Assembly: GCF_029664245.1 (NCBI RefSeq)
Contig: NZ_JANAIE010000002.1
Coordinates: 248,001-312,000 of the forward strand
Origin: Profundicola chukchiensis
Lineage (GTDB): Bacteria; Bacteroidota; Bacteroidia; Flavobacteriales; Weeksellaceae
Direction of reading: 5' to 3'
Length of the DNA stretch: 64,000 nt
The translations under genes were made by a program, and so were the position numbers. Below the pieces are notes generated by a model. The model had not been told where the DNA came from. It saw only the letters and a program-made list of their open reading frames with translations, and made no database searches. Below, one piece after another: positions 38,940 to 43,050 of the stretch (the stretch's first letter is position 1; each line of letters starts with the position of its first letter).

Positions 38940-39995
38940 TTAGATAATCAACATTGCATCACCGTATGAGAAGAATTTATACTCTTCTTTAACAGCTTCT
39001 TTGTAAGCTTTTTTCACTAAATCGTGTCCTGCAAATGCTGAAACCATCATCATCAAGGTTGATCTTGGTGTATGGAAATTAGTAATCATGGCATTCGCAA
39101 TACTAAAGTCATATGGTGGGTGAATATATTTATTCGTCCATCCGTCATATGCATTTAAATAACCGTTAGCAGAAACAGCTGTTTCAATAGCACGCATAGA
39201 AGTTGTACCTACAGCACAAATTCTCTTCTTGTCATCGATAGCGCGATTCACACGATCTGCAGTAGATTGTGGAACATTAGCACGCTCAGATTCCATTTTA
39301 TGTTTGGTTAAGTCTTCTACTTCCACTGGAGCAAAAGTTCCTAAACCTACGTGTAAAGTAATTTCGGCGAAATCAACACCTTTAATTTCTAAACGTTTCA
39401 TTAAATGTTTAGAGAAGTGTAAACCAGCAGTAGGTGCAGCAACAGCTCCTTCTTCTTTAGCATAAATCGTTTGGTATCTTTCGGCGTCCGTATCCTCTAC
39501 TTCTCTTTTAATATATTTAGGTAAAGGAGTTGTTCCCAAAGCAGTTAGCTTAGCACGGAACTCTTCATAAGGCCCATCGTATAAAAAACGTAAAGTTCTA
39601 CCACGAGAAGTTGTATTATCTACAACCTCAGCTACTAAATCATCATCGTCTCCGAAGAATAATTTATTACCAATTCTAATTTTTCTAGCTGGATCTACTA
39701 AAACATCCCAAAGGCGTGTTTCTGGATCTAGTTCTCTTAACAAGAAAACTTCAATTTTAGCTCCAGTTTTTTCTTTATTTCCGAAAAGCCTTGCTGGAAA
39801 AACCTTCGTATTATTCATGATCAACACATCTTCCTCATCGAAATAATCGATTAAATCTTTGAAAGTTTTGTGTTCAATTGTTCCAGCTTTTCGATCTAAT
39901 ACCATTAAACGAGCTTCGTCGCGGTATTCCGCAGGACGTTCAGCCAAAAGTTTTTCAGGTAACTTAAAATCGAAATCAGATGTTTTCATTTTCAT
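38940..39995 (-). CDS. queA: S-adenosylmethionine:tRNA ribosyltransferase-isomerase
   Basis: The 351-residue protein has the QueA pattern: [28 protein letters not shown] at the start in two parts, [25 protein letters not shown] and [17 protein letters not shown]. It transfers the ribosyl part of SAM to preQ1 in tRNA, the step after Tgt. Start may be Met3 (39989), closer to homologues. It is divergent from tgt, with the two queuosine genes about 500 bases apart. Confidence 0.95.
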
Positions 39996-40321: not shown

Positions 40322-40470
40322 GGAGCGCGGCGCGGATTGGCAGCAGTAGCGCGCAAAGGGCGAGCTAGCAACAAAAAACGCAGTAAAAAAGCGACCTTAG
40401 AAGCTCTTTTTACAAGATTTTTTGTCTAGCTGGCACTGCGTACTACTGCAGAAAGCCGCAAATGCCGCCC
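40322..40470. repeat. GC-rich imperfect palindrome of about 150 bases, likely a repeat element
   Basis: Two arms pair in order: GCGGC (40327-40331) with GCCGC (40464-40468), GCAGTAG (40343-40349) with CTACTGC (40443-40449), AGCTAG (40363-40368) with CTAGCT (40426-40431), ACAAAAAA (40371-40378) with TTTTTTGT (40418-40425), and GTAAAAA (40383-40389) with TTTTTAC (40407-40413). The outer arms are far richer in G and C than anything nearby. It looks like a foldable intergenic repeat or MITE-like element. No frame is coded. Confidence 0.8.
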
Positions 40471-40495: not shown

Positions 40496-40503
40496 TATAT
40501 TTG
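40496..40503 (+). promoter_or_regulatory. -7 promoter box (TATATTTG) for tgt
   Basis: Exact TAnnTTTG match only 6 bases before the tgt ATG, so the transcript would be leaderless or nearly so. No TTG at -33 is clear. Confidence 0.65.
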
Positions 40504-40509
40504 CAGCCA

Positions 40510-41640
40510 ATGAAATTCGAAATTCAAACCACAGATACGGCCTCCTCGGCAAGAGCAGGTACTTTTACAACGGCGCATGGCGATGTCCAAACGCCTATTT
40601 TTATGCCCGTAGGTACGGTGGCTAGCGTAAAAGCGGTTCATCAACATGAGCTAAAAGAGGATATTAAAGCGCAAATAATTTTAGGGAATACTTATCATTT
40701 ATACTTGCGTCCGGGAACGGAGATTTTAGAAAAAGCTGGTGGACTGCATAAGTTTATGAATTGGGATCGACCGATTCTGACGGATAGTGGTGGTTTCCAG
40801 GTATATTCTTTGTCAGATATTCGCAAGGTTTCGGAAGAAGGGGTGCGTTTTCAATCGCATATTGATGGTTCTTATCATATGTTTTCGCCGGAATATTCCA
40901 TGGAAATTCAGCGAAAAATTGGGGCTGATATCATTATGGCTTTTGATGAATTGACCGGAATTCCAGCGACTTATAGAGAAGCAAAAAGAGCTATGCATGT
41001 TACGCACAGATGGCTAGAGCGTTGTAGAACTTGGTTGAACGAGAATCCGCCTTTGTATGGTTATAATCAGACTTTGTTTCCGATTGTTCAAGGGAATTCT
41101 TTTGAAGATTTAAGAGTAGAATCGGCGAAATATGTTGCGGATTTTGGCGCAGATGGGAATGCTATTGGCGGATTGAGTGTTGGAGAGCCAGAGGATGTGA
41201 TGTACAATATTGCTGGTTTGGTTTGTGAGATTTTGCCAAAAGATAAACCGAGATACTTGATGGGTGTTGGTACGCCATGGAATATTTTAGAGAATATTGC
41301 TTTGGGTGTTGATATGTTTGATTGTGTAATGCCAACAAGAAATGCTCGTAACGGAATGTTGTTTACGTGGAATGGCGTTATGAACATGAAAAACGCAAAG
41401 TGGAAGGATGATTTTTCGCCATTAGATGAGTCAGGAACTTCTTATGTGGATTCGGCTTACTCAAAGGCATATGTGCGACATTTATTTGTAGCTAAAGAAT
41501 ATTTAGGAAAACAAATTGCGTCTATTCACAATTTGGCGTTTTATTTGGACTTAGTGCGCGTAGCAAGACAGCATATTATAGCTGGAGATTTCAATCAATG
41601 GAAAGAACAAACGGTTCCTAAATTAAAGCAACGACTTTGA
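40510..41640 (+). CDS. tgt: tRNA-guanine transglycosylase Tgt, lacking zinc cysteines
   Basis: The protein has 376 residues. It has TDSGGFQVYSLS (catalytic Asp), FDELTG and FDCVMPTRNARNG, and exchanges guanine 34 for preQ1. The zinc site of most Tgt proteins, CxCxxC about 25 residues before a His, is gone: the segment reads DESGTSYVDSAYSKAY near 306-321, without cysteine. The His in ASIHNLAFY remains. A TTG start 9 bases upstream is less likely than this ATG. lptG overlaps its end. Confidence 0.95.
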   Translation: MKFEIQTTDTASSARAGTFTTAHGDVQTPIFMPVGTVASVKAVHQHELKEDIKAQIILGNTYHLYLRPGTEILEKAGGLHKFMNWDRPILTDSGGFQVYSLSDIRKVSEEGVRFQSHIDGSYHMFSPEYSMEIQRKIGADIIMAFDELTGIPATYREAKRAMHVTHRWLERCRTWLNENPPLYGYNQTLFPIVQGNSFEDLRVESAKYVADFGADGNAIGGLSVGEPEDVMYNIAGLVCEILPKDKPRYLMGVGTPWNILENIALGVDMFDCVMPTRNARNGMLFTWNGVMNMKNAKWKDDFSPLDESGTSYVDSAYSKAYVRHLFVAKEYLGKQIASIHNLAFYLDLVRVARQHIIAGDFNQWKEQTVPKLKQRL

Positions 41641-42966: not shown

Positions 42967-43041
42967 GGGATCATAGCTCAGTTGGTTCAGAGCATCTGCC
43001 TTACAAGCAGAGGGTCGGGGGTTCGAATCCCTCTGATCCCA
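42967..43041 (+). tRNA. tRNA-Val (anticodon TAC)
   Basis: The 75-base cloverleaf has acceptor GGGATCA paired with TGATCCC, a D arm GCTC...GAGC, an anticodon stem TCTGC/GCAGA with loop CTTACAA (anticodon TAC, reads GUA), and a T arm with loop TTCGAAT. The discriminator is A. CCA is not encoded. Its own promoter and terminator flank it. Confidence 0.96.
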
Positions 43042-43050
43042 CAACAAGAA

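Follow-up and report, generated by a model that had tools for sequence, protein, structure and literature searches.

Flavo-1 (Rfam RF01705) is an unexplained structured motif that is widespread and abundant in the Bacteroidota; it was described in 2010 without a function and was catalogued as a probable RNA rather than a cis-regulatory one (Weinberg et al. 2010, PMC2864571). In Flavobacterium psychrophilum, Flavo-1 matches lie in either sense relative to transcripts and many are located outside transcribed regions (PMC9723704). The element described here lies between the divergent queA and tgt genes in a 64 kb stretch of DNA (the window, meaning the whole stretch that was analysed). Its siblings in the same genome carry the same succession of boxes as Flavo-1 (GATTG ... 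GGAAATCC ... AAAGATTG ... AAAGC) on the same strand, and like Flavo-1 they occur in Bacteroidota as many intergenic copies, several of which pass or nearly pass the Rfam cut-off. Unlike Flavo-1, the element is a long form of about 147 nt, as opposed to about 76 nt, and has in addition an inner hairpin and a basal helix (P1); classical short Flavo-1 copies of other genera have only a short stem where the long form has its inner hairpin domain. To the known motif are thus added a long form, a closed basal helix, several arm subtypes, selection on one strand and, in one genus, a strong compositional footprint around the copies that is locked to their orientation.

Two further classes of DNA hairpin invite comparison. 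ERIC and MITE-type imperfect palindromes are likewise about 130-150 nt long, imperfectly palindromic and dispersed as intergenic copies, but the element described here swaps its stem sequence while keeping the pairing and shows a strand preference. Integron attC sites offer an analogy of working principle only, being imperfect hairpins which act from one folded strand and combine a variable stem sequence with conserved basal boxes; in contrast to attC sites, neither a cassette array nor attC boxes were seen.

Structure of the element upstream of tgt

A preliminary description of the window reported an imperfect palindrome of about 150 bases with nested arms that are richer in G and C than the flanks, a loop near 40390-40406, and a position between the divergent queA and tgt genes, ending 25 bases short of the tgt -7 box. 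This picture is borne out. The hairpin at 40322-40470 (149 nt) folds with -60.9 kcal/mol compared with a shuffle mean of -45.7 (z -3.95), and its nested arms form a single long stem in the predicted fold. The loop is found at about 40391-40404, a few bases from where it had been placed, and the GC content is 0.45-0.52 inside the element versus 0.24-0.33 in the upstream flank. Pairing runs to the extreme ends, where the helix GCGGC/GCCGC closes the element, and 25 bases separate the element end at 40470 from the predicted -7 box. The features of the locus are as follows:

40324-40470, + strand: whole long-form Flavo-1-type element (fold; match of a 21-copy model at 40322-40457; sharp ends in near-identical congener copies)
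40327-40331, + strand: basal helix P1, 5' strand GCGGC (pairs with 40464-40468 in the fold; P1 complement in 74 of 123 copies)
40334-40339, + strand: conserved box GGATTG, N1-GAT-N2-G (N1 and N2 each pair with the 3' box in 121 of 123 copies)
40345-40353, + strand: 5' arm AGTAGCGCG, specific to the subtype and replacing the Flavo-1 box GGAAATCC (same or similar arm in L094, L181, L185, L186, L190, L192, L244 and L251)
40368-40427, + strand: inner hairpin domain (93% identity to the own-genome copy L002)
40391-40404, + strand: apical loop region GCGACCTTAGAAGC (fold; kept among own-genome copies)
40439-40447, + strand: 3' arm CGTACTACT, partner of the 5' arm AGTAGCGCG (fold; arm comparison)
40452-40457, + strand: conserved box AAAGCC, N2'-AGC-N1' (pairs with the 5' box across copies)
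40464-40468, + strand: basal helix P1, 3' strand GCCGC, with CC after it up to the element end (fold; pairing statistics over 123 copies; sharp congener ends)
40496-40503, + strand: TATATTTG, predicted Bacteroidota-type -7 box of tgt, downstream of the element (pattern scan; consensus match only)
40510-41640, + strand: tgt gene, ATG at 40510 (third-position skew of 0.55 on the element strand, see below)
38940-39995, - strand: queA, divergent from tgt

One out of 200 shuffles folds as stably as 40322-40470, which is the one point that would favour a palindrome arisen by chance and devoid of function; this reading is nevertheless countered by the further copies, the leave-one-out model match and the covariation described below, and its probability is negligible.

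Copies and family identity

With the element as query, copies of the inner domain are found elsewhere in its own genome (G000; 2.62 Mb in 108 contigs) at 93%, 85% and 73-75% identity, and a second search with one of these copies as query returned more full-length relatives. A covariance model made from 14 copies raised the number to at least 22 in this genome, the count being a lower bound. The preliminary description had named the lack of any other copy among the grounds for refuting its reading, and these copies remove that ground. The 22 copies are intergenic and dispersed and occur in all gene configurations next to unrelated neighbours. When the model is built from the other 21 copies, the window copy is its sole match in the 64 kb (91.6 bits, E 4e-23). 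The feature upstream of tgt is therefore not a one-off palindrome but belongs to a dispersed family of intergenic structured elements of the Flavo-1 type, in which it is a long-form copy with arms of a GTAG/CTAC subtype.

Three members of the first set of copies score above the Rfam gathering cut-off for Flavo-1 of 42 bits (56.4, 48.5 and 44.2 bits) and six more reach 31.8-40.4 bits, while a whole-genome Rfam search identified another own-genome copy as Flavo-1 at 64.9 bits. The window copy itself (L001) has no Rfam match at the gathering threshold, nor at E<=5, because it has AGTAGCGCG/CGTACTACT where the arms GGAAATCC/AAAGATTG would stand. Since sibling copies match RF01705 and their model in turn recovers the window copy, the latter is a homologue of Flavo-1. 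The basal boxes of Flavo-1, GATNG and NAGC with a covarying N, are present in it as GGATTG and AAAGCC. The Flavo-1 arm boxes GGAAATCC/GATTG are absent and AGTAG/CTACT arms stand in their place. Judged by sequence comparison, these arms look like a subtype rather than a decayed Flavo-1, because two further species of the genus (G001 and G002), as well as the own-genome copy L094, carry this pair of arms or one very like it.

Covariation and strand preference

In 21 own-genome copies, 92% of the cells are paired and two-sided changes occur in 34 of 40 base pairs, a result equalled by none of 500 shuffles; in 101 copies from the two congeners this holds for every one of the 40 pairs. These percentages are somewhat inflated because the alignments were fitted to the structure of the model, and an alignment built without a structure model already has two-sided changes at 25 of 34 pairs. 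Covariation, the absence of which the preliminary description had likewise named as refuting its reading, is hence abundant. Of the identities that this description had offered, repeat and structured RNA motif both stand, given at least 22 copies and strong covariation, and a control element specific to tgt is not supported.

The long form consists of a basal helix with a CGCCC end which closes a long arm of covarying helices, and in some copies an extra hairpin precedes the closing strand. The complement of the P1 5' pentamer is found in the 3' flank of 74 of 123 copies, where permutation gives a mean of 10.4 and a maximum of 20, and the two covarying N positions of the GATNG/NAGC boxes pair in 121 of 123 copies each (permuted means 56 and 59). 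Near-identical congener copies have sharp ends at the basal helix. The + strand is predicted to be more stable than its complement in 110 of the 123 copies with RNA parameters, a number that rises to 118 when DNA parameters are used. GT pairs standing in isolation are more numerous than AC mismatches (119 versus 55). Because the + strand folds better and GT exceeds AC, selection acts on one strand (+ at the window copy), as RNA or as single-stranded DNA, rather than on a two-strand cruciform. At one site shared with a congener (L083/L229) the two copies agree in orientation, in fold and in the genes on either side, while the stem sequence is almost wholly different with its pairing intact, which suggests that the paired arms may be replaced wholesale. 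In G002, the near-identical copies L169 and L172-L178 are preceded on their 5' side by degenerate AACCATAAACCTTAAACC-type repeats, which may be either a favoured target or a part of the element itself, as its tail.

Distribution and partner machinery

Across 24 relatives the copy number varies from 0 to 79 (model matches at E<=0.01), with 73 copies in G001 and 45 in G002, and the Rfam Flavo-1 model finds more than 120 copies in each of two genomes. About a third of the 22 own-genome sites have a counterpart in a congener, where an element adjoins the orthologous gene at the corresponding end. No empty site at the nucleotide level was caught among the relatives compared; the dispersal and the sharp ends of the copies point to an element that is probably mobile.

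The REP/REPIN hairpins moved by Y1 (HuH) transposases (TnpA-REP or RAYT) are a candidate model for such mobility, being short, dispersed, intergenic and non-coding hairpin units that act in single-stranded form, and TnpA-REP subclass 2.6 of the Bacteroidetes sets a precedent with its atypical flanking structures and copies elsewhere in the genome (PMC6006769). However, the element is larger than these repeats, its stem sequences covary strongly, and the two copy-rich congeners G001 and G002 have no Y1_Tnp gene. Y1_Tnp presence does not track element copy number, and the single Y1 gene of the own genome is accompanied by a different palindrome array and has no Flavo-1 beside it. A RAYT/REPIN system is accordingly a most improbable carrier of the element. 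The Y1_Tnp gene in question (L127:1480-3345; G000:C87 near 135497) encodes the motif YINNQKEHH, which is like that of TnpA-REP subclass 1.2, a subclass given as having no REP (PMC6006769). It is followed by repeating short-palindrome units (AATGAATCCGAAGGATTCAAA, CGACCCCGAYGGGGTCG and AATCCCTTCGGGATTA) that are likely to be its cognate repeat array.

Reverse transcriptase genes (RVT_1) were not found in G000, G001, G002, G008, G010 or G026 at E<=1e-6. Retrons, diversity-generating retroelements (DGR) and group II introns are disfavoured by this absence from element-rich genomes. The Y1_Tnp and RVT_1 searches together identified no transposase or other mobilising machinery for the element.

Compositional footprint around the copies

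The GC skew at third codon positions (GC3 skew) of flanking codons was read on the + strand of each element, in frames set by a codon-usage model and, for the comparisons of orthologues and of tgt, in frames defined by tblastn; stop-to-stop frames on short flanks were avoided as their ties break towards one strand. In three congeneric genomes the skew is positive at 58/60, 37/41 and 21/22 loci, with means of 0.357, 0.244 and 0.183 as compared to coding-strand backgrounds of -0.03 to 0.145, and it is on average positive for flanking genes of either strand. Its magnitude is 0.30-0.34 near elements versus 0.11-0.14 far away (p 5e-12, 5e-4 and 1e-6). On a single contig examined by distance, the skew is highest close to the element, with +0.42 within 1.5 kb downstream and +0.29 within 1.5 kb upstream, and has faded at 3-4.5 kb. 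Third positions near elements gain G at the expense of A and T at the expense of C. In this genus, flanking third positions are thus shifted to G and T on the element + strand, on both sides and over about 1-3 kb. Two skewed windows of G001 for which no element had been listed proved to lie within about 1-3 kb of one. Beyond this genus the footprint loses strength or is lacking, with a moderate effect in G008 (12/15), a weak one in G010 (22/30) and none in G026. No footprint of this kind appears among the titles and abstracts listed in searches of the open-access literature on similar repeats and on local strand asymmetry. The footprint has strong statistical backing and is a new property of what is otherwise a known motif, represented here by a divergent long form. 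The direction of the footprint follows the strand of the copy and is as such a clue to element function.

A to G and C to T changes on one strand, centred on the element, present on both sides of it and with a sign set by its orientation, would be the expected trace of a + strand that is recurrently single-stranded or re-synthesised. The best explanation, and a reasonably probable one, is that a dispersed Flavo-1-type element works through one strand, the + strand being exposed or re-synthesised time and again, with no role specific to tgt. The element would be active in its single-stranded form and spread by machinery acting in trans, and repeated exposure or re-synthesis of the flanking + strand would leave the A-to-G and C-to-T changes. 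A more far-reaching version, which we put forward tentatively, holds that long-form copies in this genus may be active sites of strand-specific processing of single-stranded DNA over 1-3 kb on either side, that an undescribed machinery may also disperse the elements, and that the footprint in core genes including tgt may be its product.

The main rival for the origin of the footprint is transcription. The element could be a multicopy gene that is transcribed into a structured RNA, in keeping with the way Rfam classes Flavo-1, and the flanking skew would then be left by transcription accompanied by + strand R-loops. The strand preference and the covariation would suit an RNA, and the downstream side of the footprint is the stronger one. 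A to G and C to T changes on the non-template strand are a known mark of transcription-associated damage, which matches the changes seen here. In spite of this, the skew also reaches as far as 1.5 kb upstream and covers genes on both strands, a pattern scan found no -7 box shortly upstream of the window element, and six tRNA loci taken as a transcription control have a mean skew of 0.01, although such a sample (n=6) is too small to be decisive. The occurrence of Flavo-1 in either sense in Flavobacterium psychrophilum, with many copies untranscribed, also speaks against this origin (PMC9723704), which we consider rather unlikely.

Alternatively, the skew could be made by some other process and the elements could insert or survive preferentially, and in one orientation, where it already exists. 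Skewed windows without a detected element do occur, and there is no correlation between skew and apparent element age; since the skew does not rise with age, an element that causes skew and an insertion that seeks it both stand. Against this order of events stand the sister-species orthologues that have no nearby element, in which the same genes show no skew (0.337 vs 0.012, 0.382 vs 0.050 and 0.313 vs -0.032; p 0.0017, 0.0007 and 0.008), and it is a possible account but a doubtful one.

Replication-strand orientation was rejected as a cause, because in neither G000:C32 nor G002:C1 is the regional skew in step with the elements. The orientation of copies in G010 is biased against regional skew (16+/5- versus 9+/18- zones, Fisher p 0.004; a split-free scan gives p 0.17). 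On G000:C32, windows at 3-4, 54-55, 153-157, 324-326 and 332-334 kb (L321-L335) have a skew magnitude above 0.3 although the model detects no element in them; they may have lost their element, contain one of a different type or owe their asymmetry to another local source.

As a lead to strand-specific exposure, damage or re-synthesis the footprint is testable, and active sites and partner proteins might be found with its help. Caution is also called for, in that anomalies of codon usage, for example in tgt, can be tied to an adjoining repeat.

The tgt locus

The tgt gene has a GC3 skew of 0.55 in its own genome, and the top three tgt skews among 30 genomes (0.55, 0.49 and 0.39) belong exactly to those with an upstream element on the same strand. 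The element lies close to the predicted tgt -7 box and both congeners also have one upstream of tgt, as might be expected of a cis regulator such as an attenuator, a queuosine-sensing leader or a promoter-proximal control. However, it is located upstream of the -7 box and hence outside the 5' UTR position expected of a preQ1 leader, it matches none of the preQ1 riboswitch families in Rfam, it is inverted in G002, and it is missing at tgt from most other relatives, one genome of another family having a short element there. The other copies flank unrelated genes in all orientations. With a position upstream of the promoter, no preQ1 match and a dispersed family, a tgt-specific regulatory role is unlikely, and regulation in cis of any of these kinds is highly improbable; following the explanation preferred above, the tgt site would be one landing site among many.

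The nearest named relatives of tgt are from Chryseobacterium and Kaistella (73-74% identity), and queA adjoins tgt only in the own genome among the tgt loci compared. An Rfam scan of 60 tgt loci detected Flavo-1 in two. Upstream of tgt in the congener G002 there is a TPP riboswitch match below threshold (L044:932-1027, - strand, 42 bits with a cut-off of 54.3). The sole Rfam match in the window is an ordinary tRNA-Val (TAC) at 42967-43042.
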